A stretch of DNA of 64,000 nt from Gammaproteobacteria bacterium (GTDB lineage Bacteria > Pseudomonadota > Gammaproteobacteria > Pseudomonadales > JAUIET01): NCBI GenBank assembly GCA_030431775.1, contig JAUIHW010000004.1, positions 62,001 through 126,000 on the forward strand, written 5' to 3'. Shown here piece by piece: positions 3,801 through 44,803 of the stretch. The position numbers and the translations under genes are program-made. Below the pieces are notes generated by a model, which was not told where the DNA came from, did no database searches, and worked only from the letters and a program-made list of their open reading frames with translations. How positions within the stretch are numbered: position 1 is the stretch's first letter; every line of letters begins with the position of its first letter.

Positions 3801-4453
3801 CGGCGCGCTCTATGGGAGATGCGATCGCGATTGCCGGAGATTCCGGGCCAGAATACGACACCTTGTTACACTGCCTGCGCCAGCAGAAATCTCGTGCCGA
3901 CCTTGCATCGCACTCACTTGCCGACTTTGTGGATACCAGCAATGATTTCATAGGTGCCTTTGTGGTGACCACCGGACATGGGATCGATGCCCATCTACAG
4001 CGTTTTGAAGCCGAACACGATGACTACAGCGCCATTATTCTAAAAGCGCTAGCCGATCGCTTTGCGGAATCATTTGCTGAATGGGCTCACCGTGAAGTAC
4101 GCACCCGCCTATGGGGTTATGCAAGCGACGAGGCACTCAGTAATGCGCAACTGATCAGTGAACAGTACCAGGGCATCCGACCCGCGCCGGGCTATCCGTC
4201 CTGCCCGGACCACCGCTTGAAACAAATCATCTGGCAGTTGCTGGATGCCGAGCAAAGGACCGGAGTCAGCCTGACCGAGTCATTGGCAATGTGGCCGACG
4301 GCCAGCGTGAGCGGCTTTTACTTTGCCCACCCGCAGGCCCAATATTTTACCCTTGGGCGCGTGGACAAAGACCAGGTCGAGCACTATGCGAATGCCCGCG
4401 ACGAGAGTCTGGATGAAAACGAGCGGTGGCTGGCACCCATACTGGCCTATTGA
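809..4453 (+). CDS. metH: Cobalamin-dependent methionine synthase MetH
   Basis: Transfers methyl from methyl-THF to homocysteine through cobalamin in the cytoplasm. At 1214 aa it is nearly the length of E. coli MetH (1227). All four modules are present. The homocysteine domain has zinc cysteines in GLNCALG (about residue 245) and GGCCGT (about 308-309). The pterin-binding domain begins near [11 protein letters not shown] (about 350). The B12 cap and Rossmann domains carry [10 protein letters not shown] with the cobalt-ligand His at about 757, plus [12 protein letters not shown] and [11 protein letters not shown]. The C-terminal reactivation domain carries the SAM-binding [12 protein letters not shown] (about 1122). 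The ATG at 809 overlaps the metF stop. The enzyme appears intact and implies that cobalamin is made or imported. Confidence 0.98.
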
Positions 4454-18268: not shown

Positions 18269-19579
18269 CTAAAGCCTATCGAGCATTGAATAGTACAGCA
18301 TACCCGCCACCAAACCTGGCCAGCGCAGCAACACGCCACCCGGGAATTTCTGGTGTGGCAGTCTGGCGTATAAATCAAAACCCTCGGCCTGCTTCATGAT
18401 CGCGTCGGCTACCAGCTTGCCGCCCATATTGGCCATGGCGATACCGTGCCCAGAGTAGCCCTGTGCCCAATAGATACTGTCCGCTTTGCGCCCGAAATGC
18501 GGCATCCGCTTCATAGTGACCGCCAGCGTTCCGCCCCAGGCGAAATCAATCTTTACGTCTGCTAGCTGCGGGTATACTTCCAGCATGTGGCGGCGCACAA
18601 AGCGCTTCAAATCGCTGGGAAAGCGCGACGAGTAGTTTTCTCCACCGCCAAAAATTAGGCGATGATCCGGAGAGTTGTGAAAATAATTGACGACAAAGCG
18701 GGTGTCCACGACAGCCAGGTCGCGGCGGTTTATTTCTCGGGCACGCGCTTCTCCCAACGGCTCAGTCGCAAGAATAAAGTTGTTGATCGGCATCTGGTAC
18801 ACCGCCGCATCTCTTTGCAGATTACCCAGGTAACCATTGCAGGCGATGATGACTTTGTCAGCGCTCAGTGTGGCTTTATCGGTCTTTAGCAAGATCCGGC
18901 TGCCCTGCTGGACAATCGATTGCACTGTAGAGTGTTCATGGATTACCGCACCCTCCTGGCCAGCCGCCCGGGCCAGACCAAGGCTGAGCTTCAAAGGCTG
19001 GATGTGCGCAACATTAGAGTCAATATAACCGCCAAAAAATGAATCAACGCCCAGAATTTCGGCGACTTCCTCGCGGTTTACCTTTTCCTTAGCGGTGTAC
19101 CCATAGTGCTGCTCCAGATAATCCGCGTAGTCCCAAAGACCTGTCTCGTGGCGTTCTCGATGCGCAACCGTTAAGCCACCATCGCGAAGATCGCAATCAA
19201 TTTCATAGTGGTCTACGCGCTGACGCACCAGCTGGTTGGCTTCCACAGCAATCTGCCACATCTTCTTGGCAGCGTCTTGGCCCAGCCACTGTTCAAGCTC
19301 GAGTTGGTCCTTACGCTGCCCTGTCCCCAGCACACCACCGTTACGTCCGGAGGCACCTGCGCCCACTTTGTGCGCTTCGAGCACTGCTACATTAACTTTA
19401 TTTTTTGCCAGTTCGATGGCCGCGGAAAGACCCGTGTACCCCGCACCGATGATGGCAACGTCGACCTTACAGTCCTGGTCCAAAGCAGCATAACTCGGAA
19501 TTTCGCCGGCCGAATGATAGTACCAGGAGTCTTCGTAACCGACACTGGAGTCTCCGCCATAACGTCTGCTGCCTGGCAT
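18269..19579 (-). CDS. puuB: FAD-dependent amine oxidoreductase, PuuB-like (gamma-glutamylputrescine oxidase family)
   Basis: 436 aa DAO-family flavoenzyme. The N-terminal GxGxxG is in VAIIGAGYTGLSAAIELA (about 41-58), followed by EAHKVGAGASGRNGG, as in PuuB and related gamma-glutamylamine oxidases. A C-terminal WAQGYSGHGIAMANMGG is the second FAD-contact region. In the Puu pathway it would oxidise gamma-glutamylputrescine to the aldehyde, producing H2O2 and ammonia. Its ATG overlaps the puuA-like stop by one base (TAATG), so the two are translationally coupled. PuuC and PuuD homologues are not in the window. An alternative is oxidation of another gamma-glutamyl amine. Confidence 0.82.
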   Translation of the reverse strand: MPGSRRYGGDSSVGYEDSWYYHSAGEIPSYAALDQDCKVDVAIIGAGYTGLSAAIELAKNKVNVAVLEAHKVGAGASGRNGGVLGTGQRKDQLELEQWLGQDAAKKMWQIAVEANQLVRQRVDHYEIDCDLRDGGLTVAHRERHETGLWDYADYLEQHYGYTAKEKVNREEVAEILGVDSFFGGYIDSNVAHIQPLKLSLGLARAAGQEGAVIHEHSTVQSIVQQGSRILLKTDKATLSADKVIIACNGYLGNLQRDAAVYQMPINNFILATEPLGEARAREINRRDLAVVDTRFVVNYFHNSPDHRLIFGGGENYSSRFPSDLKRFVRRHMLEVYPQLADVKIDFAWGGTLAVTMKRMPHFGRKADSIYWAQGYSGHGIAMANMGGKLVADAIMKQAEGFDLYARLPHQKFPGGVLLRWPGLVAGMLYYSMLDRL

Positions 19580-20895
19580 TACAATGCGCTACCCAGAAAA
19601 CGCACTTCCCATGGCGAGAGCTGCTTGCTGAATGCGCTGTATTCATTGTGTTTAACCGACAAAAACACCTCAATGAAATCATCGCCGAACAGTTCTCGAA
19701 GTTTGCTGCTCTGACCCAGTGCATGCAAAGCGACCACGAGATTATCCGGTAGATCAGCCACTTCATCGTACGCATCGCCGCCATGCGCAGCGCTCGGCTC
19801 AATCCCCTCCTCCATTCCTGCAAGGCCACATGCCAGTGTGCTGGCAATCATCAGGTAAGGGTTGGCGTCTGCGCCAGCTACCCGGTTTTCCACGCGGCCA
19901 GCAGCGGCATCTCCAGCAGGAACGCGCAGCCCAGCGGTGCGGTTATCATAGCCCCACTCCAGGTTGATCGGTGCGGACACGCCCGGCACAAACCGCTTAT
20001 AACTGTTGACATGTGGGGCCAGCAAGGCGAAGGCCTCCGGAAGATACTGTTGCAGGCCGCCGATAAAGTGCTTTAGCGCTTGTGGCGCCTCGCCATTTTG
20101 CAGTGCAAAGACATTATTGCCCGCCTCGTCAATCAGGCTGCAATGCAGGTGCAGGCCGTTGCCGGGTAACTCGACAATAGGTTTTGCCATGAAGCTCGCG
20201 AGTTTGCCATGGCGAACCGCGCAGGCCTTGACCAAGCGCTTCAACAGAAACAACTCGTCTGCCCTATCAAGAGCCGGCCCGTGGTCGACATTCAGTTCTA
20301 TTTGCGCCGGGCCCATTTCATGCACCAGAGCACTGGTATGCAGCCCAGCTTGCTGGGTCATAGATGAAAGATCATCGATAAACACCTGGAACTTACCGAG
20401 GGCATCCGGATTAAAGGCTTCGCCGCCAAACTCTGCCCGGCCGTCCTGGCCGCAGGCTGTCTCCAGCTGTAGGGCGTCTCTCGACGGCGGCTCCAGCAGA
20501 TACAGTTCAAGCTCTGGCGCGACAATTGGCTGCAGGCCCTGGTCGGCAAAGCGCTGCACTATGCGGCGCAGCACGTTGCGTGAGTCATAAGCTAATGGCA
20601 AGCGGGTGTCAGCATCCAGTGTTTCACAAATCACCTGGCCGACGCCGTCCAGCCACGGCGAAGCCCTGTAGCTGGACCAGTCGGGCTGCAACAGCATGTC
20701 GGAATCTTTCGGATTGAAGGTGTCCATCGCCTGGGCGTAATCACCGGTCACCGTTTGCATCAACACTGCTTTGGCAAAATTCGTCAACGCTCGTTCCTCA
20801 ACCGCCGCACCGGTAAGGCTTTTGCCTCTGGGCACACCATTGATATCGCTGATCAACAGCTCCAGTGTTTGCGGGAGCATTTGCGGCTTGCTCAT
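19579..20895 (-). CDS. puuA: Glutamine synthetase family gamma-glutamylamine ligase, PuuA-like
   Basis: 438 aa. GS-fold ATP-dependent ligase that would join glutamate to putrescine or another amine. The start is placed at 20895 (MSKPQMLPQ) because AAGGAG sits upstream and ISDINGVPRGKSL begins the family homology; a longer frame to 21027 lies inside the upstream gene. GS catalytic elements seen: an ELELYLLE metal-binding strand, MGPAQIELNVDHG, GNGLHLHCSL with metal-binding His, NLEWGYDNRTAGLRVP (ATP/glutamate binding) and GRVENRVAGADANPY. It sits 10 bp after the aminotransferase and overlaps puuB by one base. Confidence 0.85.
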   Translation of the reverse strand: MSKPQMLPQTLELLISDINGVPRGKSLTGAAVEERALTNFAKAVLMQTVTGDYAQAMDTFNPKDSDMLLQPDWSSYRASPWLDGVGQVICETLDADTRLPLAYDSRNVLRRIVQRFADQGLQPIVAPELELYLLEPPSRDALQLETACGQDGRAEFGGEAFNPDALGKFQVFIDDLSSMTQQAGLHTSALVHEMGPAQIELNVDHGPALDRADELFLLKRLVKACAVRHGKLASFMAKPIVELPGNGLHLHCSLIDEAGNNVFALQNGEAPQALKHFIGGLQQYLPEAFALLAPHVNSYKRFVPGVSAPINLEWGYDNRTAGLRVPAGDAAAGRVENRVAGADANPYLMIASTLACGLAGMEEGIEPSAAHGGDAYDEVADLPDNLVVALHALGQSSKLRELFGDDFIEVFLSVKHNEYSAFSKQLSPWEVRFLGSAL

Positions 20896-20905
20896 GGGGC
20901 GCTCC

Positions 20906-22276
20906 TTAAGTGGAGATGCCAAACTCTGCGGCTGTCTTGTCCAATGCCTGGCGTAAGCGGTCAACCAGCAGGTCGATTTCCTGTTCGCTGCAGACGTAGG
21001 GTGGTGCGCTGGCAATGGCATCGCCAATTGCGCGAATCATCACCCCGCTTTCAATGGCGGCATCCCGGCAAACCAGGGCTCCCTTATTTTCGGGCGCCAG
21101 CCGTTCCATGCTGTGCTTGTCTTTCACCAACTCCACCGCGGCCAGCATGCCCTGCGTGCGCACTGCGCCCACAATCGGGTGGTCGGCAAGCTGGTGCCAC
21201 TGGCTGGCAAAATACGGGGCCAAAGAATTGCCTATGTGTTCCATGGTTCCCTGGTTACGATAGATTTCCAGCGTCGCCAGGCCCGCCGCACAGGCAGCCG
21301 GGTGCCCGGTGTAGGTGTAGCCGTGAGCAAATTCCCCACCGCCCTCGGTCAGCACCTTAGCGACCTTGTCTCCCACTGCAACACCACCCAGCGGTTGAAA
21401 ACCATTGCTGACTGCTTTGGCAAACGTTAACAGATCCGGCTCAAAACCGTAGGTTTCACAACCAAACCAGGCACCGGTTCGGCCAAAGCCGCAGATCACC
21501 TCGTCGCTGATCAGCAGAATATTGCGGCGCTCGCAGATTTCCTTGACCGCCGGCCAATAGCTGTCCGGCGGAATCACCACCCCACCGGCGCCTTGAATCG
21601 GCTCGGCAATAAAGGCAGCAACGTTTTCCTCGCCGAGTTCGTCGATCTTGGCTTCAATTGCCTGAGCCGCCTTGATGCCAAACTCATCGGGACTCAGATC
21701 ACGGCCTTCTTTGAACCAGTAAGGTTGCTGCACATGGTGTACATACGGAAGCGCCGTGAACTGGGCGTGCATGCTTTTCATACCACCCAGACTGGCACCT
21801 GCAATAGTACTGCCATGATAGGCGTTTTCACGGCTGATGATAATTTTCTTGCTCGGCTGATCCAGCAGGTCGAAATAGCGGTGTACGAGGCGGATATTCG
21901 TATCATTCGCCTCTGAGCCAGAAGAGGTGAAGAATATCTTCGAGAAATGGTCCGGCATCACTTCCAGCAATGCTGCAGCCAGTTCAATAGCGCGGTCATT
22001 GGAGCATTGAAAAAAACTGTTGTAGTACGGCAGGCGTTGCAACTGCTCGTAAACCGCCTCAACTATACTGGGCTGGGTATAACCCAGTGGACAGCACCAC
22101 AAACCAGACATGCCGTCCAATAATTGCCGGCCTTCAGAGTCGCGGATGTAAATGTGCTCGGCTTCAACCATTACCCGCCCGCCTTTGCGAGCGTACTCGG
22201 TCGGGTCGGTAAACGGGTGCAGGTGATGCGCTCGATCCATGGATTGCAGTTGGTCTGTGCTGGCTGCTTGAGTCAT
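20906..22276 (-). CDS. Class III aminotransferase, putrescine/omega-amino acid:pyruvate type (SpuC-like)
   Basis: 456 aa fold-type I PLP enzyme. Motifs: GLWCCPLGYTQPSIVEA near the N-terminus, FFTSSGSEANDTNIRLV (PLP phosphate region), YHGSTIAGASLGG, LLISDEVICGFGRTGAWFG with the PLP-N1 Asp, the Schiff-base Lys in LLTFAKAVSNGFQPLGG, and HGYTYTGHPAACAA. The family moves amino groups from putrescine, beta-alanine, GABA and similar omega-amines to pyruvate. Next to PuuA/PuuB it provides the alternative, non-glutamylated putrescine route. RBS GGAG lies 6 nt before the ATG at 22276. Exact amine specificity cannot be read from sequence. Confidence 0.9.
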   Translation of the reverse strand: MTQAASTDQLQSMDRAHHLHPFTDPTEYARKGGRVMVEAEHIYIRDSEGRQLLDGMSGLWCCPLGYTQPSIVEAVYEQLQRLPYYNSFFQCSNDRAIELAAALLEVMPDHFSKIFFTSSGSEANDTNIRLVHRYFDLLDQPSKKIIISRENAYHGSTIAGASLGGMKSMHAQFTALPYVHHVQQPYWFKEGRDLSPDEFGIKAAQAIEAKIDELGEENVAAFIAEPIQGAGGVVIPPDSYWPAVKEICERRNILLISDEVICGFGRTGAWFGCETYGFEPDLLTFAKAVSNGFQPLGGVAVGDKVAKVLTEGGGEFAHGYTYTGHPAACAAGLATLEIYRNQGTMEHIGNSLAPYFASQWHQLADHPIVGAVRTQGMLAAVELVKDKHSMERLAPENKGALVCRDAAIESGVMIRAIGDAIASAPPYVCSEQEIDLLVDRLRQALDKTAAEFGIST

Positions 22277-22336
22277 TGTTCACTCCATTTCAGTATTAGG
22301 GCGATGCTATCACAAGCCAGCAAAATCGGCCGGCTT

Positions 22337-23206
22337 TTATCGGTTTTGCAAACCCAACTCGGCGGTTCGTTCCTGTTCCCATTCGGTCAGGTTGAGTTCG
22401 ATGGCCCAGAACCCGGCGATCCAGACGATGGCGTCCAATCCGTACAGCGTATAACCAAAATACAGCCAGGCAAATGCGCATGTCCACAGCACCAGATAAG
22501 AGCCTGTTTTAGCCGTTTGCACTACGCGTAATGAGCGGCCGAACCGGTCTCTCCACTGCAGCCAGATTTCTATCTCAATCAGCGCAACGACAAGCAACCA
22601 AACCCAGGCGTTGACGACATTGATCCATTCCATGGACTGGACTTTCTGCAGAGTGGGCGCATCGATCAGAGAAACGTTTTGATCAACTTTGTAGTAGGGC
22701 GGGCCTGATGAAATTTCAGTGCAATTCTCCAAGCTTATCTCGCGGTAATCCGCCGAATCAGTCTGCAACCATATACCCTGTGAGGCCAGGTCACAGAGAT
22801 TCTCCACCTGAGGTTGAGGGGTGATCTTGTAGTAGTCAAATGCAATGATCGTATAGCCAATAGCCGCATAAGCAATCGACACCGCGCACAGCAGGCGAAA
22901 GCCGCGCAGCAACTTACCGAGCCAGCTTTCCAGGACATTGTCAGACAACAGATAGGTTTCAAGCTCGAGAAGAAAAATCAGCCCAAGCCAGGCTACAGTA
23001 TCAATAGTTGTAGCGAAGGTTTCGAGCAGCTCGCTGATGGGCGCATCCTTTGCAACCGAGCTGCGGTAGGCAAGCAAGTCATCCTGGAGATAGAGCACGA
23101 AATTGAACGTAAGAATACCGTAAACTGACCACTTGATCACTGCGGCGACCTTGGGGTGCGCAAGCAAGGGGATCAAGGCGGTATTCAACGAAAAGGTACT
23201 TGTCAT
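22337..23206 (-). CDS. Integral membrane protein of unknown function
   Basis: 289 aa. I do not recognise the family. Hydrophobic segments lie near residues 20-42, 65-87, 98-121, 196-219 and 233-270, separated by a soluble loop of about 70 residues (roughly 122-192) with three cysteines, probably extracytoplasmic. Two membrane segments share an unusual acidic pattern (FLLELETYLL and ALIEIEIWLQ), and a third reads FWAIELNL. ATG at 23206 is preferred because a perfect AAGGAGGT lies 6 nt upstream, inside the end of the MFS gene; a TTG at 23224 would swallow that RBS. Its stop-proximal position between a transporter and an aminotransferase suggests a role in amine transport or sensing, but this is only context. 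Confidence 0.7.
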   Translation of the reverse strand: MTSTFSLNTALIPLLAHPKVAAVIKWSVYGILTFNFVLYLQDDLLAYRSSVAKDAPISELLETFATTIDTVAWLGLIFLLELETYLLSDNVLESWLGKLLRGFRLLCAVSIAYAAIGYTIIAFDYYKITPQPQVENLCDLASQGIWLQTDSADYREISLENCTEISSGPPYYKVDQNVSLIDAPTLQKVQSMEWINVVNAWVWLLVVALIEIEIWLQWRDRFGRSLRVVQTAKTGSYLVLWTCAFAWLYFGYTLYGLDAIVWIAGFWAIELNLTEWEQERTAELGLQNR

Positions 23207-23220
23207 GCCGTTACCTCCTT

Positions 23221-24456
23221 TCAAGCAGCGACAGCAAGTGCACGATTATGCACCGCCAGGTAACGATGAATGGCGCCATACACCAACATGGCGAGCAATG
23301 AGCAGCCAGCACACAGCAGCATGACACCGCTGTAGCCTAGCTGGGCGCCGAGAATCGACGCGGCAATATTCGGCCCCAGAATCTGCCCCAAGCCCTGGGC
23401 CATGGGCGTCATCGATGCAAAACGGCCTGATTTGTCCATATTGGAAATCGTCCCCAACTGGTACACATCGATCAAAAACCAAAGCAACATATACCCGTAC
23501 ACCGCCACCATGAAGGTGACTGTGCTGATTCCAAGCAGCAACAAGCTCACCGTACCCACCATGAGCACCAGCGCCGATAACAGTGAGCGTGATTGACCAA
23601 ACCGTTTCGCCAGGACAGTGGCGATTGCCGCACCAATAAAACTGAAGGCAGTGCCATACACCAGGCTGTCGGCAATAAACTCATCATTGAGGCCGCTGGC
23701 AGTGGCCGCCAGCTCAATATAGGTCCAGAAGGCACCAATATTGGAATACGTTGCAACAATCGCTACCAAGCAGACCCAGCCCAGCCAGGACGGTACATGC
23801 TCATAGTCCATGCCCACCACGCTTGCTGCAGCACCATCACCGGCGTTTGCAATCTGTCCTTGTTGGACTGCCAATAAAACCGGATCAGCTGGCCCTCTGG
23901 GCAACAACGGCACCAGCAGAATCAAGGGTGCGCAGCACCAAGCGAACACGGTGAAAATCTCACTGGCACTCAATGCCGGCATATAGGCCAGCTCGAGAAC
24001 CTGAATTAACACCAATATGAACAGGTAGATAGTAAATGTTCGGGCCGTATTGGAATTCCCAGCCAAACCGGCCATGCCAACAGCTGCCAACATTCCTGCG
24101 CCAGCGCCAGCGGCAACACGGAGGAAATACAGAGATTCATAGTCAGTGTACTTGAGGCACAAGAGGTTTGCGCCCGTCAACAGAGCGATTCCCGCGACCG
24201 CTAACCAGCGCCGATTGACCCGATTTACCAGCAGCGATATCAAAAAGGAGCCAACCGCCATACTGCCCATATCGGCCCCGGCAATTCGGCCGACCTGTTC
24301 CTCAGTGTATCCGTAATACTCCACCAGGGCCGCAGCAATGACGGGCATACCCATTAACACCATCCACCCTACAGAGCCTATCAGCAAAGAGGCCGCGACG
24401 GTTTTTGGTTCATCAAATACGCTCGGATGTGGAGCGATGGCAGCAGAAGCGCCCAA
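23221..24456 (-). CDS. Major facilitator superfamily transporter
   Basis: 411 aa with about 12 hydrophobic segments in two halves and a cytoplasmic central loop around GPADPVLLAVQQGQ (about 190-215). TM1 starts at SLLIGSVGWMVLMGMPVIAAALVE only about 22 residues in. MFS-like loop motifs include GRIAGADMGSMAVGSFL between TM2 and TM3. The start appears to be TTG at 24456: no ATG or GTG suits the N-terminus and no good RBS is seen, so the start is uncertain. The gene is divergent from agmatinase across about 95 bp and is followed within its own stop by the RBS of the next membrane protein. The likely substrate is an amine or amino acid (context only). Confidence 0.85.
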   Translation of the reverse strand: MGASAAIAPHPSVFDEPKTVAASLLIGSVGWMVLMGMPVIAAALVEYYGYTEEQVGRIAGADMGSMAVGSFLISLLVNRVNRRWLAVAGIALLTGANLLCLKYTDYESLYFLRVAAGAGAGMLAAVGMAGLAGNSNTARTFTIYLFILVLIQVLELAYMPALSASEIFTVFAWCCAPLILLVPLLPRGPADPVLLAVQQGQIANAGDGAAASVVGMDYEHVPSWLGWVCLVAIVATYSNIGAFWTYIELAATASGLNDEFIADSLVYGTAFSFIGAAIATVLAKRFGQSRSLLSALVLMVGTVSLLLLGISTVTFMVAVYGYMLLWFLIDVYQLGTISNMDKSGRFASMTPMAQGLGQILGPNIAASILGAQLGYSGVMLLCAGCSLLAMLVYGAIHRYLAVHNRALAVAA

Positions 24457-24516: not shown

Positions 24517-24550
24517 TGTCACAATCAAAAAAATTATGGAGCGCTTCACT

Positions 24551-25456
24551 ATGTCTGAGAATACCCTGAATGACAGTGCCTCAATGTTTGCCAACACCTT
24601 CGGCTTTCTGGCCTGTCCTTTGAGTCGCGACATCAGCAATGCCGATGTCGTTGCCATGGGCATTCCCTACGATCTGGGAACGACCGGGCGCTCAGGCACA
24701 CGCTTTGGCCCACAGGGAATCCGGCGGGCTTCCGCCAATTTGCGCTGGGAAGAACGCCGCTGGCCATGGGACTTCAATGTCAGCGAACGCCTTAAACTGA
24801 TTGACTACGGTGACCTGGAGTTTCCACCCGGACAAAGCGAGTCCATGCTGGCAACAGTCAGCGCAACTGCAACCGAAATTCTCCAACAGGGAAAAAAACT
24901 GCTGTCCTTTGGTGGCGACCATTTCGTAACATTACCCTTATTACGCGCCGTTCATGCGGTGCACGGCACAGTGGCGTTGGTACATTTTGATGCTCACACA
25001 GATACGTACGAAGAAAGTGACAAGTACGACCACGGCAGCATGTTTTACTTCGCACCACGCGAAGGCCTGATTGCGCCACAACACAGTATTCAATTGGGTA
25101 TTCGTACCGAATACGACGTACCCACTCACCAGTTCACCGTACTGGATGCGGCTACAGTGAATGACAACAGCGCGCAATCAGCGGCAGAACATATTCGCTC
25201 AGTGGTGGGGGACCGGCCGGTCTACTTGACCTTTGATATCGATGGTCTTGACCCGGCATTTGCGCCTGGGACCGGCACCCCGGTTTGCGGCGGCCTCAGC
25301 ACCGATAAAGCGCTGAAAATTTTACGTGGTATGCGTGGGCTTAATATTGTTGCCATGGATGTCGTAGAGGTTGCACCCAGCTATGACCATGCTGATATCA
25401 CGTCATTGGCAGCAGCAACCCTGGCACTGGAGATGCTATATGTCATTGCCTCCTGA
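24551..25456 (+). CDS. speB: Agmatinase / ureohydrolase (SpeB-like)
   Basis: 301 aa arginase-fold dinuclear Mn enzyme hydrolysing agmatine (or another guanidino compound) to putrescine and urea. The metal-binding set is complete: [19 protein letters not shown] and [17 protein letters not shown]. Start ATG 24551 is favoured over ATG 24536 because GGAG (24538-24541) is well spaced from it. Divergent from the MFS transporter and near PuuA, PuuB and an SpuC-like aminotransferase, it would supply their putrescine. Guanidinobutyrase or guanidinopropionase activity is the alternative. The 84 bp after it, before the convergent Rieske gene, hold no recognisable signal. Confidence 0.9.
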
Positions 25457-25540: not shown

Positions 25541-26710
25541 TCAATCAGTTGCAATCTGCCGCAAAACCCACTGCTGAAACCGGTGCACCTCATATTCTTC
25601 GGCCATCAATACCCCGCGTTCATAAGCCTGGTTTACTAAACCGCGCTGGTTCAACTCTGCGACGTAACCGTCTTCATCGATCACCTGGCGGGCAAATGCG
25701 GCTGCTTGCTCGGCGTTGAAGTTTGGGTCGTTAATGGTTTCTTCGGAAAAGAACCAGTCCGCCCGCAACAAGGTCTGTTGCGCATTCAGCGGCAGCAAGC
25801 GCACGCTGCGAACATAATCACTGTGGCCGACAATAAACATCGATGGCAGCAGCATGGCGTAATTGTGACCGACCTGCTTTTCCTGTTCGGTCAAGCCCTG
25901 GAATGGCTTCCCTACCGGCTTACCTTCGGTAGCCCAGGTACTTGCCCCTTCCGCTAATCCACCCGCATAGGCCGGGTCGGAACTCACAACGTCGGGCGAC
26001 CAGTTGATGTCGTCCTGCGCTTCCATAATACCGCGTTTGTACAGCGGCACAATTTTGCACAAGTCAGGATGAATGTGCGGACAATGCAGGCATTCATTGA
26101 AGTTTTCCCAAAACAACTTCCAGTTACAGTTCAGCGTTTTCTCGTATTGATAGGCGCTGCGCAAGCCAGCGAGGTGCCAGTTATTCAGGGAAACCGAATA
26201 TTCATCAAAAGCGGCCTGTAAATCGGTTTTCGGCTTGCGCGCTAGATTAATGAAGACAAATCCCTCCCAGCTTTCCAACGCCACCGGCAATAAGGGGTAA
26301 TCACTCAGTGCCAAACCTGCCGGGCAGGAACCGTAACCTGTGCGCCTGAGCTCTCCGTCCAGTGAATACGCCCAGCGATGGTAGGGGCACACAACATGCG
26401 CTGACGGTAAGCGTCCGCTGGATTCTGTCAGCAGTAAGGAACCGCGATGCCGGCAGGTGTTGTAGTAAGCCCGCAACTCCCTACTGTCATTGCGAAGCAA
26501 TATGATGCTCTGAGTTCCAACCGTCACGGTAAGATAATCGCGCGGCTCCGCAAGATCTTCCTCTCGACAGACCAATAACCAATTCTGGTACCAGATTTTT
26601 TGCAGTTCGGTTTCAAAGAAGGTTGCATCCTGATAACAACTGCGCGGCAGCGTTTCGGTCACTGCAGTCAGGCCCGGGTATGTGCTGTTGTCAGGCGGCT
26701 TGTCCAGCAT
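25541..26710 (-). CDS. Rieske non-haem iron oxygenase, large subunit (betaine/choline-monooxygenase-like)
   Basis: 389 aa. The Rieske [2Fe-2S] motif is CRHRGS followed by CPYHRW (about 86-112). The catalytic-domain 2-His motif is ENFNECLHCPHIHPDL (about 205-220), with Glu at the bridging position as in choline and betaine monooxygenases. It would hydroxylate an N-methyl or adjacent carbon of a quaternary amine using O2 and external electrons, often releasing formaldehyde. Its start overlaps the end of the MttB-family gene by 20 bp, so the two are co-translated. No reductase gene is adjacent. Candidate substrates are proline betaine, glycine betaine or carnitine (inference). Confidence 0.9.
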   Translation of the reverse strand: MLDKPPDNSTYPGLTAVTETLPRSCYQDATFFETELQKIWYQNWLLVCREEDLAEPRDYLTVTVGTQSIILLRNDSRELRAYYNTCRHRGSLLLTESSGRLPSAHVVCPYHRWAYSLDGELRRTGYGSCPAGLALSDYPLLPVALESWEGFVFINLARKPKTDLQAAFDEYSVSLNNWHLAGLRSAYQYEKTLNCNWKLFWENFNECLHCPHIHPDLCKIVPLYKRGIMEAQDDINWSPDVVSSDPAYAGGLAEGASTWATEGKPVGKPFQGLTEQEKQVGHNYAMLLPSMFIVGHSDYVRSVRLLPLNAQQTLLRADWFFSEETINDPNFNAEQAAAFARQVIDEDGYVAELNQRGLVNQAYERGVLMAEEYEVHRFQQWVLRQIATD

Positions 26711-28211
26711 AATATTCTTTACGCCTCTCTACGTAATCCACTAATGCTTCATCAATGGCAGGATCCAATGGTGGCTGCTGGTAATCTTTAAGTAACTGCT
26801 TCCAGATGGCATTGGCCCGTTGGGCAGTATCCCGACTGCCGTTTTCCTGCCAGTTTTCAAAGTTCTGCCGGTCCGACACCATCGGGGTGTAAAACGCCGT
26901 TTCATAGCGCTCCAGTGTGTGCGCCGTACCAAAATGATGCCCGCCCGGCTCTACTTGCATAATGGCCTCCAGCGCGAACTCGTCATCGTTGAATTCGATG
27001 GGCTTGAAGGTCGCCGCCATCATTTGCAGCATTTCCGCATCCACAATCAGTTTCTCAAATGAAGCGGTCAAACCACCTTCCAGCCAGCCGGCCGCATGGT
27101 TAACCAGATGGGCATGCCCCATGACACTGGCCCACAAAGACATTTGGCTTTCATAGCTTGCTTGCGCGTCCACACTCAAGGCCGTAGTCGTGTTACTGGC
27201 ACGGAACGGCAAACCAAGGTGACGGGCAATCTGCCCGCTTGCCAGAGTGGCCTTGCAGTATTCGGGCGTGCCCAGTGCTGGCGCACCGGTCTTCATATCC
27301 ACGTTTGAGGCAAACGCACCGTACATGACAGGAGCCCCGGGATTCACCAGCTGGGTCAAAGTGACCACGGCCAGTACTTCAGCTGTTTGTTGAGTCAGCG
27401 TTCCAGCCAATGTCGCCGGGCTCATGGAACCCGCCAGGGTGAATGGCGTAATGCAACTTACCTGCCCGGCCTGTGCCAACGTCATGCTGGCCTCGCCCAT
27501 CGCCACATCAAGCTGCAGGGGCGAATTGGTATTAATGATACCAAGTAAGGCCGGAGTTTCTTTCAGCTGCTGTTCATCAAGCTGTAAGGCAATTCCAGCC
27601 ATGGCGATACCATCGATGGTTCGGTCCCGGCCCAACGGATAGGCCTGAGCATTTTTGTCCAGGAAGCGGTATTGCGCCAAGTGGGTGTCCAGGTGGCGTG
27701 TCTGTGGCGGCAAGTCCATGGGTTCAAAAGCCATGCCGCCTTCCTGGTGCAGTATGTTCAGGCTCTGTATCAGCTTGAAGTAATCACACAGGTCGGCGAA
27801 GCTACCAGGCCTGCGGCCGCGGTCCAGGTCGCTGCAGAATGCCGGTCCGCCGACGGCGGCAAACACCTGTGAACGGCCACCCATTGTCAAATTGTGTTGT
27901 GGGTTTCTCGCCCGCAATTGAAAGCCAGCGGGCACGTGCACCAGTTGTTCGCGAACCAGTTCCGGCGGGTAAAAAACCTGTTCAGTCGACGGGTCAACCT
28001 TCGCTCCGGCTGCCGCCAGCAGCTGCCGCGCCGTTGGGTCCAAAATCCTTATGCCTTTGCGTTGCAATACCTGCTGCGCCTTGTCAATGATTGCCTCAAC
28101 GTGATCAAGGCTGATCACTTCAATGGGGGCAAAGGGGTTGCTCAACTGCTGCCAAGGCAACTGCGGTATTGTTACAGCACTACGCGCCGGCCGGCGCTTA
28201 CGTCGTGTCAT
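26691..28211 (-). CDS. MttB-family corrinoid methyltransferase without pyrrolysine (quaternary-amine type)
   Basis: 506 aa trimethylamine-methyltransferase (MttB) superfamily. Sequence features: ILDPTARQLLAAAGAKVDP near the N-terminus, GGPAFCSDLDRGRRPGS, PFTLAGSMSPATLAGTLTQQ, GAPVMYGAFASNVDMKTGAP and a C-terminal VEPGGHHFGTAHTLERY. The frame is uninterrupted, so it belongs to the non-pyrrolysine branch. Characterised members of that branch (MtgB, MtpB, MtcB) demethylate glycine betaine, proline betaine or carnitine onto a corrinoid protein. No corrinoid protein or RamA-type activator is encoded nearby, which is unusual. It overlaps the NhaC gene (14 bp) and the Rieske gene (20 bp). Confidence 0.9.
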   Translation of the reverse strand: MTRRKRRPARSAVTIPQLPWQQLSNPFAPIEVISLDHVEAIIDKAQQVLQRKGIRILDPTARQLLAAAGAKVDPSTEQVFYPPELVREQLVHVPAGFQLRARNPQHNLTMGGRSQVFAAVGGPAFCSDLDRGRRPGSFADLCDYFKLIQSLNILHQEGGMAFEPMDLPPQTRHLDTHLAQYRFLDKNAQAYPLGRDRTIDGIAMAGIALQLDEQQLKETPALLGIINTNSPLQLDVAMGEASMTLAQAGQVSCITPFTLAGSMSPATLAGTLTQQTAEVLAVVTLTQLVNPGAPVMYGAFASNVDMKTGAPALGTPEYCKATLASGQIARHLGLPFRASNTTTALSVDAQASYESQMSLWASVMGHAHLVNHAAGWLEGGLTASFEKLIVDAEMLQMMAATFKPIEFNDDEFALEAIMQVEPGGHHFGTAHTLERYETAFYTPMVSDRQNFENWQENGSRDTAQRANAIWKQLLKDYQQPPLDPAIDEALVDYVERRKEYYAGQAA

Positions 28212-30132
28212 TGGAGGGCTTGCCTATGTACCGAACCACCAACACCAATGCGAGCGCGCAAAGCCCCATGGAAAGCCACCACGGTACCCCCATTGCGCTA
28301 GGGATAACTCCAATCAACAAGGTAACCACGCCAACGGTCATTGCGTAGGGTATTTGCGTTCTAACATGCTCAATATGGTCACAATCTGCGGCCATAGATG
28401 ATAGCACTGTGGTATCGGATATTGGTGAACAGTGATCACCCCAGACTGACCCGGCAAGGACACAGGCCACGGTCGAATAGACAATGTGCATTTCATCGCC
28501 GGTCACGGCACCATCGCCACTGAGCACAGTCCAGGCAACGGGTAATATCAATGGCAGGACGATGGCCATCACTCCCCAACTCGACCCGGTGGCAAAAGCG
28601 GCCGCGGCAGACAGTACAAATGTCCAGGCAGGAATGCTGGCAGGGGTGAGAAAATCGCCACCGAGACGAACCAGAAAATCAGCGGTATGCAAAATTTTGG
28701 TGACATCCGACAAAGCCCACGCAAGCACGAGAATGATGATCGGCGCGATCATTATCAGCACACCTTGGGTCCAGGCATCAACCAGCTCACTCAAGCTCAG
28801 AATTCGCTGCCCCAAAGTCAGTACAAGCGCCGTCGCCACTCCGGCAAAAGAACTCCACATCAGCGCCTTATAGGCATCAGCCGTGCTCATAATATCTCGC
28901 AGGCTGTCGCCCTCACCGGTTACATACAAGCCCACACCGCAACTCACCACGAGCACCAGGATGGGCAGCACAGCGTTGACCGCTCGACAGGGTATGGAGT
29001 CATCCACCATCGGATTCATAGTCTGATGTCCTGAACTGCCCTGCGCGCTGCTTGGCTTCGCTTCTCCTCGATAACTGGCACGCTCAACATCCAGCATCGG
29101 GCCAAAATCCCGGCCGGTGAACGCGATCAGGTAGACGAACAGTATCGCCATGAATGGGTAGAAACTGTAAGCCAGCGAATTCAGGAATACTGTGTAGGCC
29201 GACTCGGTGAAACCGGGCAGACTTTGCCCAGCTGTATCGATCAAACTGACCTGGTAGCCAATCCAGGTCGTCATCACGGCCACACATGCTACCGGGGCTG
29301 CAGTGGAATCCACCAGATAGGCCAGCTTTTGCCTGGAAATGCGTAACTTATCAGTAACTGAGCGTACTGAGTTCCCCACCACCATGGTATTGGTGTAGTC
29401 ATCGAAAAAAATGCACAAGCCTAGAAACCAGACGGACAGTTGGCCTCGGCGCGCGCTATTGGCCCAACGTATCACAATATCAATCACGCCCTGCATGCCA
29501 CCGTTGCGGGAAACAATGCTGACCAAACCACCTATCATGCAACTGAATAAAATAATGGAGACATGATCGGGGTCGACCAGAACCTGGTGCACACGAACGG
29601 TAAAGGCCTCCAGTGCTGAATTGAAAAACGACGCCACTGTGAGGCCATTTTGAATCATCACACCAGCCCACAGCCCCAGAAACAGTGCTGGAATCACGGT
29701 TTTCAGCCACAGTGCCAGCCCAATTGCGATCACCGGCGGAATGATCGAGAGCCAACCGGGAATGGCATTGACCGGAGCGGATTCCGCAGCAAGCTCAGCC
29801 AAGCTCGCTGTAACAACATTCTGGCCAGGACGGTCAATAACAAAGGCTGCGCGAGTTTCAGCCGTGTCGCCAAGCTGTACTTCGCGAGCCGAACTTTCTT
29901 TCGCTTGTGTACTCAGCTGCACTTTGGCACCAAGCAGTGCCTCTGGAGTCACCTGCGAGGGCTTTAACAGCAGTTCAAATTCCTGGCCGAGGTGAACCAC
30001 CTTCGGCGCCTCTATTTGTAATTCCAGAGTAGCATCTGGTACTTCAGCATTTATCGACTCCGACGCGATTGCGACACCGCTGATGATCAGACCCATTAGG
30101 AGTAAGCAGGGAATTAAGCGAAGCTGTTGCAT
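28198..30132 (-). CDS. NhaC-family antiporter/transporter with an N-terminal signal peptide and periplasmic domain
   Basis: 644 aa. Residues 1-23 look like a cleavable signal peptide (LLLMGLIISGVAIAS). About 24-125 form a soluble beta-rich stretch, probably periplasmic, before the first NhaC membrane segment at PGWLSIIPPVIAIGLALWL. The remainder is an NhaC-type transporter of about 11 segments with FFDDYTNTMVVGNSVR, ATGSSWGVMAIVLP and a WGDHCSPISDTTVLSS loop. NhaC homologues exchange Na+ for H+ or carry organic substrates. In a betaine/amine operon it may be the uptake or counter-ion system. It overlaps the MttB gene by 14 bp. The N-terminal domain is an uncommon addition. Confidence 0.85.
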   Translation of the reverse strand: MQQLRLIPCLLLMGLIISGVAIASESINAEVPDATLELQIEAPKVVHLGQEFELLLKPSQVTPEALLGAKVQLSTQAKESSAREVQLGDTAETRAAFVIDRPGQNVVTASLAELAAESAPVNAIPGWLSIIPPVIAIGLALWLKTVIPALFLGLWAGVMIQNGLTVASFFNSALEAFTVRVHQVLVDPDHVSIILFSCMIGGLVSIVSRNGGMQGVIDIVIRWANSARRGQLSVWFLGLCIFFDDYTNTMVVGNSVRSVTDKLRISRQKLAYLVDSTAAPVACVAVMTTWIGYQVSLIDTAGQSLPGFTESAYTVFLNSLAYSFYPFMAILFVYLIAFTGRDFGPMLDVERASYRGEAKPSSAQGSSGHQTMNPMVDDSIPCRAVNAVLPILVLVVSCGVGLYVTGEGDSLRDIMSTADAYKALMWSSFAGVATALVLTLGQRILSLSELVDAWTQGVLIMIAPIIILVLAWALSDVTKILHTADFLVRLGGDFLTPASIPAWTFVLSAAAAFATGSSWGVMAIVLPLILPVAWTVLSGDGAVTGDEMHIVYSTVACVLAGSVWGDHCSPISDTTVLSSMAADCDHIEHVRTQIPYAMTVGVVTLLIGVIPSAMGVPWWLSMGLCALALVLVVRYIGKPSNDTT

Positions 30133-30220: not shown

Positions 30221-32296
30221 TTAGCTGGCGGCTGTTTCTTCGGTTGTGATCGGAACGTCGCGTAAAACCACGGACTCACCCACTCCCAACGTTTGCGCAA
30301 ATTCATGGCCGCTGTGAACTGCGTGGGCAATGGCTCCAGGTGCACGCGCATCGCCAATTCGGCAGACCTCTGTAATACCCGCCTGCTCAAGCCTATCCGC
30401 CTGGTTCACCAGCTCATGGTACAGCGCGTCCTTCGGCAGGCGAGTGCCCACCAACACCAGCGCTGCAGCCGGGAACTCCTGTTGTTCACCAGTAAACAGG
30501 CTACTGAGCCGTGCCGTATTACCGTCAAAGCTATCCAGCAGGCTCAATGTGGTCAGACCCACGCCCAGCTTATATAGAGCCTGATGCACAAAGGGTTGCT
30601 CGTTGGTCATGATGGTCCAGGCCGACGCATGCCCGGCTGGTGTCGCGTAGTGAACCGATAAGCCGCGCTTGGCTAAAGCCTCTGCAACCAGGCCTCCCAG
30701 ATAATAGTTGTCGTAATCGTAAACCAGTACCGGCCCTTGCCCAGGCCAGTTGCCAACCGCCAGGTCATCCGGCGTGTACAGCCCTGGTGCGACCAGCTCA
30801 TCACCTGGCACCTCGAGCGCAGAATACAGTAGCTTCGTCCAGGCAGCGCCTGTCGCAATAGCGACTTTCTGCGGAGCCAGTTCGATAATGTCGTCAGCCG
30901 TGAGTCGACTCGCCGGGTACAGATTAACATTGCTCATCGGTCGCAGTGCCTGCAGGCGATAATCACGCACCCGCCCCCAGGCCGTCAGTCCAGGCAAGGC
31001 CGCCTCAAAGCGCAGTCGCCCTCCGAATTCCTCCTGCTCTTCAGCGATCGAAACGTCGTGGCCGCGCCGTGCAGCGATCAGGCCAGCCTCAAGCCCAGCC
31101 GGGCCGCCACCGACTATCAGTACGGATTCAGGCTTGCTGGTCAGCTGAAACTGCTCCGGGTGCCACCCTCGACGCCATTCCTCACCCACCGTAGCATTTT
31201 GGGTACAGCGAATCGGCACTCCATCGTGCCAACTTGCAATACATATATTGCAGCCTATGCACTCGCGAATTTCATCTTCTCGGCCTTCTCTAATTTTATT
31301 CGGCAGGAATGGGTCGGCAATCGACGGGCGGGCAGCACCGATCAGGTCCAGCACACCACGGCGAATCTGTGACACCATGCTGTCTGGCGAGGTAAAGCGA
31401 CCGACGCCAACGACCGGCACGGAGGTCACTCGCTTAACAAAATCGATCACCGGCTCATGCGCGCCTTCCTCACGAAAACGCGAGGCGCCACAATCGGTCG
31501 GACTGGAGTCCATCTTAACGTCCCAAAGATCCGGAACATCTGCCATCAGGCTGACCACTTCATGCGCCTGAGATTCATAGTGTTCACTAGGCCTTGCCCG
31601 AAGCTCTTCCAGGCTGATTCTCAGGGCAACACCACAGCTGTCTCCCACCGCGTCCTTGGTCGCTTCCACAAGCTCACGCACAAAACGCGTACGGTTCGCC
31701 ATGGAGCCACCGTATTCGTCGCTGCGACGATTGGTTTCCGGCAAAAGAAACTGGTAGCCCAGGTAGCCCATGCCGGCATAGACGTAGACAATATCAAAGC
31801 CTGCCCGACGCGCGCGCTTAGCGGCTTCTACCTGCCATCGAATGACATCGCGAATATCCTTGCGGTCCATGACTCTGGGTTTCAGCTGCCCCATAAAACC
31901 GACATGAGTGGCAGCCCAGGGCATGCCCGACGGCGAGTATGGACTGATTCGAGAGCTGCGGTTCATAGCCGCACCACCACCGTGCCACAACTCCACGCCG
32001 GCTAGCGCACCGTGTTCGTGCACCGCATCACACATCATCGCATGCGCTCGCACATCATTGTCGTCCCACAAGCGGGCAAACGGCAAGGGACTGTCATCCG
32101 ACGACGGGTGCGTGGAAACTGCTCCGGTACACACTACGCCCCAGCCACCCTCAGCCTTTACGCCGCGAAATGCAGCCCGTACCCGCGGGTTGGCCTCGGT
32201 CATGCCGCTGGCATGTGGAACCTGGTAAAAACGATTAGGCGCTGTAACCGGTCCGATCCTGACTGGCTCAAATAATGCCTGGTATTGCGGCCTCAT
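30221..32296 (-). CDS. Trimethylamine-dehydrogenase-like FMN/4Fe-4S/FAD-domain oxidoreductase
   Basis: 691 aa. An N-terminal Old-Yellow-Enzyme TIM barrel with FMN (LFEPVRIGPVTAPNRF, then YGGSMANRTRFVRE) spans about 1-340. The 4Fe-4S site is CIGCNICIASW with a fourth Cys 13 residues later (about 345-364), the same spacing as in trimethylamine dehydrogenase. A nucleotide-binding half follows, starting VLIVGGGPAGLEAGL (about 390). The family includes tri- and dimethylamine, histamine and N-methylproline demethylating enzymes. In this operon it probably oxidatively demethylates the tertiary or secondary amine left by the Rieske or MttB enzyme. Its ATG overlaps the M20 stop by one base. Confidence 0.88.
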   Translation of the reverse strand: MRPQYQALFEPVRIGPVTAPNRFYQVPHASGMTEANPRVRAAFRGVKAEGGWGVVCTGAVSTHPSSDDSPLPFARLWDDNDVRAHAMMCDAVHEHGALAGVELWHGGGAAMNRSSRISPYSPSGMPWAATHVGFMGQLKPRVMDRKDIRDVIRWQVEAAKRARRAGFDIVYVYAGMGYLGYQFLLPETNRRSDEYGGSMANRTRFVRELVEATKDAVGDSCGVALRISLEELRARPSEHYESQAHEVVSLMADVPDLWDVKMDSSPTDCGASRFREEGAHEPVIDFVKRVTSVPVVGVGRFTSPDSMVSQIRRGVLDLIGAARPSIADPFLPNKIREGREDEIRECIGCNICIASWHDGVPIRCTQNATVGEEWRRGWHPEQFQLTSKPESVLIVGGGPAGLEAGLIAARRGHDVSIAEEQEEFGGRLRFEAALPGLTAWGRVRDYRLQALRPMSNVNLYPASRLTADDIIELAPQKVAIATGAAWTKLLYSALEVPGDELVAPGLYTPDDLAVGNWPGQGPVLVYDYDNYYLGGLVAEALAKRGLSVHYATPAGHASAWTIMTNEQPFVHQALYKLGVGLTTLSLLDSFDGNTARLSSLFTGEQQEFPAAALVLVGTRLPKDALYHELVNQADRLEQAGITEVCRIGDARAPGAIAHAVHSGHEFAQTLGVGESVVLRDVPITTEETAAS

Positions 32297-33690
32297 CAGT
32301 CATCGCCTCCGGTCAATAGCTTCAACAACTGATACCAAAAATCCTGGGACTCGTAAAAAGACATCACAGGAATTCGCTCGTCCAGCCCATGGGCCCGATG
32401 GTCATCTGGGCCCAGGAATACCCCGCCCACACCGTAAGTGGGAATACCCGCACCACGGGTGTACTTTCCATCGGTAAAGTAAGGCGCCATATACGGAATA
32501 ATCGGGGTGGCGGGGTGCTGCTGAGCAAGAACCTGCTCAATAGCCGCCAGCAAATCGTCACGCAGCGGTGACGGCGGCGACGAGGAGTAACCATCAACCA
32601 GTTGCACGCGAATGTCAGAATTATCGACCGCGTTTTCCAGCGCTTTCTGCACGCTGGCGGAACTCTCATCGGGCCAAACCCGACAGTTGACCGTGGCCGT
32701 GGCTGATTGTGGTAACGCATTTTCGGCATGGCCGGCATCCAATAAAGTCGCAACACAGGTTGTACGCGTTAAACCATTAAAGGAGGGCTGCGATGCCAGG
32801 TAGTCGCTGGCTGCCTGATCATCCGGGTTATCGGCAAAAGCCCTCATGGCTGCCGCCAATTCCCCGGAATGCAATTCAGCCGAACGCCTGAAATACAGGC
32901 GCGTCGTATCATTGCTGCGCACTGGAAACCGCAGATCAGCAATTTTCCCCAGTGCAGCTGCCAGTTCATAAATGGCGTTGTCCGCCCTTGGGCGGCTGCT
33001 GTGACCACCTGGGTTGGTTGCAGTCAGCGTAAAGGTCATATAGGTCTTTTCCGCGGTTTGCATATTGAAACTGATCGGTTTCCCGTCAACGTCCCGCACA
33101 CCGCCACCACCGTCAGAATTCAAGGCATACTCGGCGTCCACCAGATCCCGGTGGTCGCTGAGCAGAGTGTTCATGGTGTAACCCGTTGTTTCCTCGTCTC
33201 CGCTAAACACGATGATTAAGTCTCGATCCGGTGTGTAATCTTCTTCCTTTAAGCGAAGGAAAACGGTCGTCAGGTTTACTACGCCGGCTTTATTGTCGAT
33301 GGTCCCACGGCCGTAGTAATAACCCTCTTCCTCAATCAGCGTAAACGGGTCACGCACCCAATCTTTGGGCAGTGCATCAACAACATCCATATGCGCCATT
33401 AACATGATGGGCCGTTTGCCACTATCAGCAATTCCAGGATAGCGCACAACCAGCGCGGCGGTGTCTTTCATTGGCAGCACCTGCACCTGTTCGGCGGCAA
33501 ACCCACCCGCCAAAAAACGCTGCTCAAGTAAACGCGCCATTGGCAAAACCTGCTCGTGCCCGGCGGCGGTGCGAAACCCAATAAGCTCACGAAACAGCTC
33601 TAGACTGCGTGCTCGGTGGTCTGTATTTTGCGTCGCGTAAGCTGTGTTAAAGCTCACCAACAGCAGCGTTAGCAGGACGATATTTTTCAT
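32296..33690 (-). CDS. Secreted M20-family metallopeptidase
   Basis: 464 aa. Start set at 33690 because it yields a signal peptide (MKNIVLLTLLLVSFNTAYA); the longer frame to 33795 has no RBS and crosses the divergent promoter. Zn ligands and catalytic residues are in MLMAHMDVVDALP, GRGTIDNKAG, FSGDEETTGY (catalytic Glu-Glu), LNSDGGGG and the C-terminal DDHRAHGLDERIPV. A dimerisation domain lies between (about 205-330). M20 enzymes cleave dipeptides or N-acyl amino acids; a periplasmic form could release amino acids or betaine conjugates for the operon. It is divergent from the PPOX-fold gene across 80 bp, which contains a TATAAT at 33706-33711. Confidence 0.92.
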   Translation of the reverse strand: MKNIVLLTLLLVSFNTAYATQNTDHRARSLELFRELIGFRTAAGHEQVLPMARLLEQRFLAGGFAAEQVQVLPMKDTAALVVRYPGIADSGKRPIMLMAHMDVVDALPKDWVRDPFTLIEEEGYYYGRGTIDNKAGVVNLTTVFLRLKEEDYTPDRDLIIVFSGDEETTGYTMNTLLSDHRDLVDAEYALNSDGGGGVRDVDGKPISFNMQTAEKTYMTFTLTATNPGGHSSRPRADNAIYELAAALGKIADLRFPVRSNDTTRLYFRRSAELHSGELAAAMRAFADNPDDQAASDYLASQPSFNGLTRTTCVATLLDAGHAENALPQSATATVNCRVWPDESSASVQKALENAVDNSDIRVQLVDGYSSSPPSPLRDDLLAAIEQVLAQQHPATPIIPYMAPYFTDGKYTRGAGIPTYGVGGVFLGPDDHRAHGLDERIPVMSFYESQDFWYQLLKLLTGGDD

Positions 33691-33770
33691 CTCGGCACTC
33701 CAGACTATAATGGTGACATTGTACGCTTTTACGTATGCTTGGGGAGTCCAAGTTAAATAAGGAATCAGTA

Positions 33771-34187
33771 ATGGCTGAATTAAGTGATGACGCACTGGAA
33801 ATCATTGCAGCGGCCAAAGTCGCGACCCTGAGCAGCCTGAGCAAAGACCAAAGCATTATGTCCTGCCTGGTTTGGTTTGAGTATCAGGACGACAGATTTT
33901 TGATTAATACCACCCGCGGTTCGGCCAAGCAGTTAACCATTAGCCGGTCTGGGAAGGCCACCGTGCTTGTCAGCGACCCACAAAACCACGACCGATATGT
34001 CTGCCTACGCTGTGAGCTGGAGCGCATTACCGTAGACACCGACTGTCAGCAGCTTGACCGGCTAACCTTCAAAAACATGGGTTTGCAGCGTTGGTATGGC
34101 GATGTTGAGGAGGCTGACCACCCTGAACAGCATGCGCGGATTACCATGGCCCTGAAGCCGGTCAGAGTGTTTGAAGCCTTATTGTAA
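33771..34187 (+). CDS. PPOX-class flavin/F420-type oxidoreductase (split beta-barrel)
   Basis: 138 aa pyridoxamine-phosphate-oxidase-like fold. The N-terminal AAAKVATLSSLSKDQSIMSC and WFEYQDDRFLINTTRGSAKQ, then ATVLVSDPQNHDRYVCLRC, follow the PPOX-class (TIGR03618-like) pattern of small flavin- or F420-binding proteins. ATG 33771 is chosen for the AAGGAA RBS 6-7 nt upstream; an ATG at 33735 lacks one. It stands alone, divergent from the M20 gene and convergent with the Rieske gene 12 bp downstream. Function is unknown; a redox or detoxification role is usual for the family. Confidence 0.8.
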   Translation: MAELSDDALEIIAAAKVATLSSLSKDQSIMSCLVWFEYQDDRFLINTTRGSAKQLTISRSGKATVLVSDPQNHDRYVCLRCELERITVDTDCQQLDRLTFKNMGLQRWYGDVEEADHPEQHARITMALKPVRVFEALL

Positions 34188-40318: not shown

Positions 40319-40336
40319 TGAATGAGTATTCATTCA
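40319..40336. promoter_or_regulatory. Palindromic operator candidate for the BetI-like regulator
   Basis: TGAATGAGTATTCATTCA: perfect 7-bp arms TGAATGA/TCATTCA around 4 bp, lying between divergent starts at 40274 and 40400. Size and placement fit a TetR-family operator. An ATG at 40322 falls inside it, an argument against using that codon as the start of the next gene. Confidence 0.6.
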
Positions 40337-40399
40337 CTGGACATGATAACGAGAAACTGGCATGCTGGCCACCTGCCTTGTGATGGAGCCTGCAACGCT

Positions 40400-43583: not shown

Positions 43584-43591
43584 GGCACAGC

Positions 43592-44791: not shown

Positions 44792-44803
44792 CGGTGGCCT
44801 GCC

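Follow-up and report, generated by a model that had tools for sequence, protein, structure and literature searches.

The locus lies in a window of 64,000 nucleotides, the whole stretch of DNA that was analysed. A run of genes on the minus strand begins with an M20-family peptidase gene (32296..33795) and continues with genes for a trimethylamine/histamine-dehydrogenase-like FMN/4Fe-4S flavoenzyme of the OYE family (30221..32296), an NhaC-family transporter (28198..30132; Pfam PF03553), a non-pyrrolysine corrinoid methyltransferase of the MttB superfamily (mttB, 26691..28211; 506 residues), and a group-V-like Rieske oxygenase alpha subunit with Rieske and Ring_hydroxyl_A domains (25541..26710; 389 residues). 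The transporter gene, upstream of mttB, overlaps it by 14 bp. When the open reading frames were checked, both mttB and the Rieske gene were intact, with coordinates exactly as in the original prediction, and the predicted 20-bp coding overlap between them (26691..26710, minus strand) was confirmed, the Rieske ATG being located within the 3' end of mttB.

On the plus strand, a gene for an agmatinase-family ureohydrolase (24536..25456; NCBIfam agmatinase) runs convergently towards the Rieske gene. An amine-handling module on the minus strand (18269..23224) comprises an FAD oxidase (18269-19579), a glutamine-synthetase-like ligase (about 19579-20900), a class III aminotransferase (20906-22276), and a membrane protein (22337-23224). 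A second amine-type cluster (40322-48580) encodes FAD amine-oxidase-like proteins, a GcvT-like protein, a class III aminotransferase, and two more Rieske alpha subunits (44804 and 47462); counting those at 25541 and 34200 as well, four distinct Rieske alpha subunits are encoded in the window, at 22-28% identity to one another. In two related genomes (L125 and L127), a homolog of the Rieske protein encoded beside mttB is found near genes for a glutamine-synthetase-like ligase, an FAD enzyme, and a GcvT-like protein, a mix that resembles the 40322-48580 cluster and hints at a shared amine pathway.

The MttB protein of the window is a member of the MttB superfamily (PF06253/COG5598) and belongs to its non-pyrrolysine branch. 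A Pfam profile search recovered a full-length MTTB domain (596 bits over residues 2-499), and the reading frame is uninterrupted, with no in-frame amber codon and with Thr341 at the position aligned with Pyl334. The AlphaFold model (pLDDT 87) featured a TIM-barrel fold like that of MttB and MtgB, with 4YYC, 9YCE/2QNE (MtgB), and 7XCL (MttB) as the best PDB matches (TM 0.87-0.90).

Profile searches found no corrinoid-binding protein in the window except MetH (809..4453, plus strand), which carries all five MetH domains, and no RACo/RamA gene, in agreement with the original prediction for this neighbourhood. The genome-wide search that it had proposed was productive: contig C64 of the same genome holds a second B12-binding_2 domain besides that of MetH, as well as the genome's only RACo C-terminal domain. 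The genes on C64 are ordered MtgB, MtgC, DUF1638, a small PF13769 protein, MtgD (a pterin-binding methyltransferase), a RACo/RamA-type protein, an HD protein, a serine deaminase and a regulator (both named from sequence by eye), and sarcosine-oxidase-like genes, so that MtgC, MtgD, and a RACo/RamA activase, the components of an aerobic MtgBCD system, are all present in this genome. The genome has five MttB-family genes, namely mttB of the window and four paralogs; the window MttB is 39% identical to the MtgB of C64. Work published in 2025 described an aerobic MtgBCD system in Ruegeria pomeroyi, in which one MtgC serves with many MtgB-like proteins, and glycine betaine no longer supports growth once mtgC or mtgD is mutated; several PF06253 (MtgB-like) ORFs per genome are usual, and an adjoining corrinoid gene is not required, the R. 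pomeroyi genes being dispersed (PMC12478193). The earlier statement that characterised non-pyrrolysine homologs occur mostly in anaerobes has been overtaken by that study.

The distribution of both proteins was surveyed in 369 gammaproteobacterial genomes, with MttB defined as a PF06253 match at E<=1e-60 and a close MtgC as a protein of at least 67% identity. MttB was present in 22 of these genomes and a close MtgC in 21, each of which also had MttB. The one genome with MttB but no close MtgC (G484) has a single, divergent MttB; two genomes with distant MtgC homologs only (G158 and G479; 43-47% identity) were left out of the count. Close MtgC occurred once per genome, against 1-18 MttB matches, and one genome (G408) had a second, distant MtgC. 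Usually, one MtgC serves several MttBs, and a solitary mttB without an adjoining corrinoid gene is a normal state, given this ratio and the co-occurrence. A congener (G001) encodes an MtgC at 90% identity. The draft genome of a relative with an ortholog of the window MttB (G140) yielded no MtgC, which counts against a partnership with MtgC.

A corrinoid domain acting in trans had been one of the options in the original prediction, with MetH as the only one in the window. The first part is supported, but the likely partner is the MtgC encoded on C64. MetH is encoded about 22 kb from mttB; as the partner of MttB we give it next to no probability and rejected it, since a dedicated MtgC is present, follows MttB across the 369 genomes, and adjoins orthologs of the window MttB, and since the MtgC of R. 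pomeroyi is phylogenetically distinct from MetH (PMC12478193).

The betaine pocket of Desulfitobacterium hafniense MtgB was predicted by modelling to consist of Tyr94, Asn199, Arg309, and His345 (PMC6855144). In the alignment, the window MttB has Gly121, Asn227, Arg337, and His372 at these positions, so that the comparison of active sites suggested by the original prediction gave a divided answer, with Asn, Arg, and His kept and Tyr replaced by Gly. All four residues are kept in the MtgB of C64. Across the ortholog group of the window MttB (n=87), the corresponding residues are Gly in 80/87, Asn in 85/87, Arg in 87/87, and His in 85/87 members. Because its pocket retains only three of the four residues, the window MttB was not classed as a glycine betaine MtgB. 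Glycine betaine itself is disfavoured as a substrate, the pocket Tyr being missing here and a paralog with the full pocket being encoded on C64; judged from these residues, the protein appears catalytically plausible, and its substrate is probably not glycine betaine.

At near-invariant columns of the ortholog group, the window MttB conforms in 99 of 100. The sole departure is N345L, where 85/87 orthologs, and the congener as well, have Asn. This Leu counts against an active enzyme and, together with the Tyr-to-Gly replacement in the betaine pocket, would suit a protein that had lost methyl transfer and acquired another role in aerobic demethylation, such as substrate binding. Such a change of role, the other option of the original prediction, seems very improbable to us and found no support: Gly is the rule in the ortholog group, many of whose members are located in mtgC clusters, the fold and the remaining near-invariant columns and pocket residues are kept, and third-codon-position changes dominate between congeners. 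Most likely, the window MttB is functional, draws on MtgC in trans for corrinoid-dependent methyl transfer, and has as its substrate a quaternary amine that is not glycine betaine.

When 84,980 species genomes were scanned, orthologs of the window MttB (56-73% identity) turned up at 80 loci; Woeseiaceae and other gammaproteobacterial MAGs contributed many of these, followed by Mesorhizobium and Rhodobacteraceae. One MttB locus (L068, CAMAXE010000034.1) is Woeseia-like although its MAG is titled Klebsiella pneumoniae, a title that is probably mistaken. Orthologs of 60-68% identity often lie within mtgC-DUF1638-mtgD-ramA-MTHFR clusters, and an adjoining corrinoid gene, missing beside mttB in the window genome, is present at many ortholog loci. 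In many gammaproteobacterial loci the order is mtgC-DUF1638-mtgD-ramA-(about 283 aa)-MttB-MttB2, in which the 283-aa protein is MTHFR-like; this set would cover methyl removal through to the re-oxidation of methyl-H4F, the last step being inferred. In the tree, the window MttB and that of the congener grouped as a starred pair within a larger clade, also starred, that has 46 rows; in 29 of these, mtgC/ramA-type genes occur within 9 kb; the placement of own_C120a was unsure because of long branches. Of 81 window-type orthologs, 37 are followed directly downstream by a divergent second MttB (~26% identical, without the pocket Asn, Arg, and His), often in an mtgC cluster (for example, L055:9467-10996); this second protein may act as a subunit paired with the first or as an enzyme in its own right.

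In Alphaproteobacteria, a flavoenzyme gene (51-68% identity to that of the window) precedes the MttB ortholog, an arrangement that recurs in Mesorhizobium and Rhodobacteraceae; one Mesorhizobium locus (L100) has an amino-acid permease and a BetI-type regulator nearby. At four loci (L077, L078, L079, and L074), a stand-alone homocysteine S-methyltransferase (MtgE/Bhmt-like) is located between the flavoenzyme and MttB. In Leisingera and Kiloniella (L113 and L111), genes resembling those for dimethylglycine dehydrogenase and sarcosine oxidase, in place of the flavoenzyme gene, flank the MttB ortholog; these loci offer a cultivable entry point for substrate tests.

The flavoenzyme of the window has the architecture of the TMADH/histamine dehydrogenase family (an OYE domain, the 4Fe-4S cysteines, and a pyridine-nucleotide-fold domain) and matched 6L6J best, with 6L6J, 3K30, and 1DJN scoring ~490-610 bits. 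It is likely a secondary/tertiary amine demethylase. In the alignment with TMADH, the equivalents of Trp264 and Trp355 are kept, while Tyr60 and Cys30, the latter the FMN-linking residue, are both Ala. Because of these two Ala residues, the enzyme probably accepts a larger N-methyl substrate and carries no covalent FMN.

The Rieske protein has a CxH..CxxH motif, the bridging Glu206, and the iron-site sequence ECLHCPHIHP, whose ECLHC segment holds the Cys-x-x-Cys pair Cys207/Cys210 around His209, followed by His214 and Asp347. The CxH/CxxH motif, the His-His-Asp iron site, and the bridging Glu are invariant across 7 homologs. Its best PDB matches were 3N0Q, 3VCA/4QUP (stachydrine demethylase by their entry names), and the carnitine monooxygenase 6Y8J. 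The AlphaFold model of the Rieske protein was poor (mean pLDDT 50) and was left unused. Group V Rieske oxygenases, a class active on quaternary amines, have been described as carrying a bridging Glu and a Cys-x-x-Cys pair (PMC7948474, PMC10952381), the pair beside the iron being found in some group V members (PMC10952381). By its motifs, the Rieske partner of MttB is group-V-like; it is not identified as GbcA, as it scored 190 bits against the 670-bit cut-off of NCBIfam NF058607. The operon contains no dedicated Rieske reductase, and a 366-aa FAD/NAD/2Fe-2S protein on contig C115 is a candidate only, which counts against the operon acting as a single catabolic unit.

Gene order at the congener locus (L026) is the same as in the window, running OYE-NhaC-MttB-Rieske-agmatinase-membrane protein-aminotransferase-GS-oxidase, with the M20 gene and an MFS gene absent and with different outer flanks. 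The overlap between mttB and the Rieske gene is 17 bp there and that between the NhaC gene and mttB is 14 bp in both genomes; since the congener keeps this 17-bp counterpart, the 20-bp overlap of the window is not due to chance. The encoded proteins are 57% (Rieske), 71% (NhaC-type), and 77% (agmatinase) identical between the two, and third-codon-position changes dominate in all four core genes. When the coordinates of MttB and Ring_hydroxyl_A genes were compared in 27 MttB-bearing gammaproteobacterial genomes, the two were side by side only in the window genome and its congener, and the ortholog scan found no homolog of this Rieske protein adjoining mttB at the other orthologous loci. A widespread MttB-Rieske pair was accordingly rejected, the pair being limited to one genus in these data. 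In six other genomes, Rieske homologs of 40-50% identity stand alone or with other genes and not beside MttB, which likewise counts against a joint function. The original prediction had named a corrinoid protein and activator elsewhere in the genome, with normal catalytic residues, as the findings that would make this an ordinary MtgB system; that description now largely fits the MttB half, while the pairing with the Rieske gene remains real.

These observations bear on whether the Rieske oxygenase is a passenger that acts on an unrelated amine and is merely co-transcribed and co-translated with mttB, with MttB still using MtgC in trans. Rieske homologs of 45-50% identity without a neighbouring MttB (G068, G127, G009, and G099) speak for it, as does the lack of any other MttB adjoining a Rieske gene in the 27 genomes. 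We nonetheless consider it unlikely, because the adjacency and the short overlap survive between species whose Rieske proteins are only 57% identical and whose outer flanks have changed, and because both enzyme classes act on quaternary or methylated amines (PMC7948474).

We favour, with reasonable but not high confidence, a reading in which MttB works with MtgC in trans and the genes of the operon jointly serve the catabolism of a single N-methylated substrate. The window MttB would act on a quaternary ammonium compound, probably one other than glycine betaine, and hand a single methyl group to the MtgC encoded on C64; MtgD would pass it on to tetrahydrofolate, and the RACo/RamA-type protein would keep the cobalt reduced. 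The NhaC-type protein would move the substrate or an ion, and the flavoenzyme and the group-V-like Rieske oxygenase would either remove more methyl groups or cleave the C-N bond by oxidation. The resulting product may then enter the neighbouring amine module with its ligase, transaminase, and oxidase. The genes, their overlaps and conservation, the MtgC/MtgD/RACo set, and the pocket residues were observed; that MttB draws on MtgC in trans, that the substrate is not glycine betaine and is common to the enzymes, and that the steps follow in this order, we infer. The reading is favoured because C64 holds MtgC, DUF1638, MtgD, and RACo/RamA together with an MtgB with a full pocket; because MttB and MtgC co-occur, the congener has MtgC, and orthologs lie in mtgC clusters; because near-invariant positions of MttB are kept, and MtgC and MtgD are needed for betaine demethylation in R. 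pomeroyi (PMC12478193); and because the OYE-MttB adjacency recurs in Alphaproteobacteria and the operon order is kept in the congener despite changed flanks.

A route combining B12, flavin, and O2 for one substrate is plausible. Only tentatively, and with the balance leaning against it, do we propose its full form, in which one co-translated operon strips the N-methyls of one quaternary amine other than glycine betaine by three chemistries: transfer to a corrinoid protein encoded in trans, dehydrogenation by the flavoenzyme, and O2-dependent oxidation by the Rieske enzyme. It would be the first known operon to unite corrinoid with Rieske demethylation. If true, B12-dependent and O2-dependent demethylation would be used together and not as alternatives. 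The converse, that MttB and the Rieske oxygenase perform the same demethylation in parallel, coping with shortage of B12 or of oxygen, might be read from their co-translation in one operon and from their classes of substrate, quaternary amines being accepted by non-pyrrolysine MttBs as well as by group V Rieske oxygenases (PMC7948474, PMC8604678). Co-translation, however, makes both enzymes at once and not alternately, and a flavoenzyme in the operon suggests successive steps; we rate parallel routes as distinctly improbable.

The B12 half of the locus is an ordinary, substrate-diverged relative of the recently described aerobic MtgBCD system; only its pairing with a Rieske oxygenase is new, and our literature search found no paper joining MttB and a Rieske oxygenase in one operon. 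The authors of the R. pomeroyi study pointed to many MtgB-like paralogs with substrates to be found (PMC12478193), and the present analysis adds a conserved group of such paralogs whose pocket is recognisably different. Across gammaproteobacteria, one MtgC accompanies an entire set of MttBs, and the operon ties this paralog to a flavoenzyme and a Rieske oxygenase. The substrate is thereby narrowed down to a methylated amine, which can be put to a direct test.

Compared with known systems, the Rieske protein resembles the group V oxygenases Stc2, GbcA, and CntA in its Rieske and mononuclear iron motifs, the bridging Glu, and the Cys-x-x-Cys pair, but it falls far under the GbcA cut-off, has no adjoining reductase gene, and is encoded next to a corrinoid methyltransferase. 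The flavoenzyme shares the OYE architecture, the 4Fe-4S cysteines, and the two Trp equivalents with the TMADH/histamine dehydrogenase family and differs from TMADH in having Ala at the positions of Tyr60 and Cys30. MtpB, MtcB, and MtyB of Eubacterium limosum belong, like the window MttB, to the non-pyrrolysine MttB family, and these paralogs of differing substrates use one corrinoid protein in common (PMC12478193). D. hafniense MtgB (2QNE and 9YCE) is of the same family and, as tested, shares its fold with the window MttB, which is 36% identical to 2QNE. In contrast to the window operon, the E. limosum and D. hafniense enzymes come from anaerobic hosts and have no described Rieske or flavin partner gene. 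Closest is the MtgBCD system of R. pomeroyi DSS-3, whose set of an MttB-superfamily MtgB, a separate MtgC, MtgD, RamA, and DUF1638 in an aerobic host is matched by the C64 cluster, whereas the window MttB lacks the betaine-pocket Tyr and shares its operon with the TMADH-like flavoenzyme and the Rieske oxygenase.
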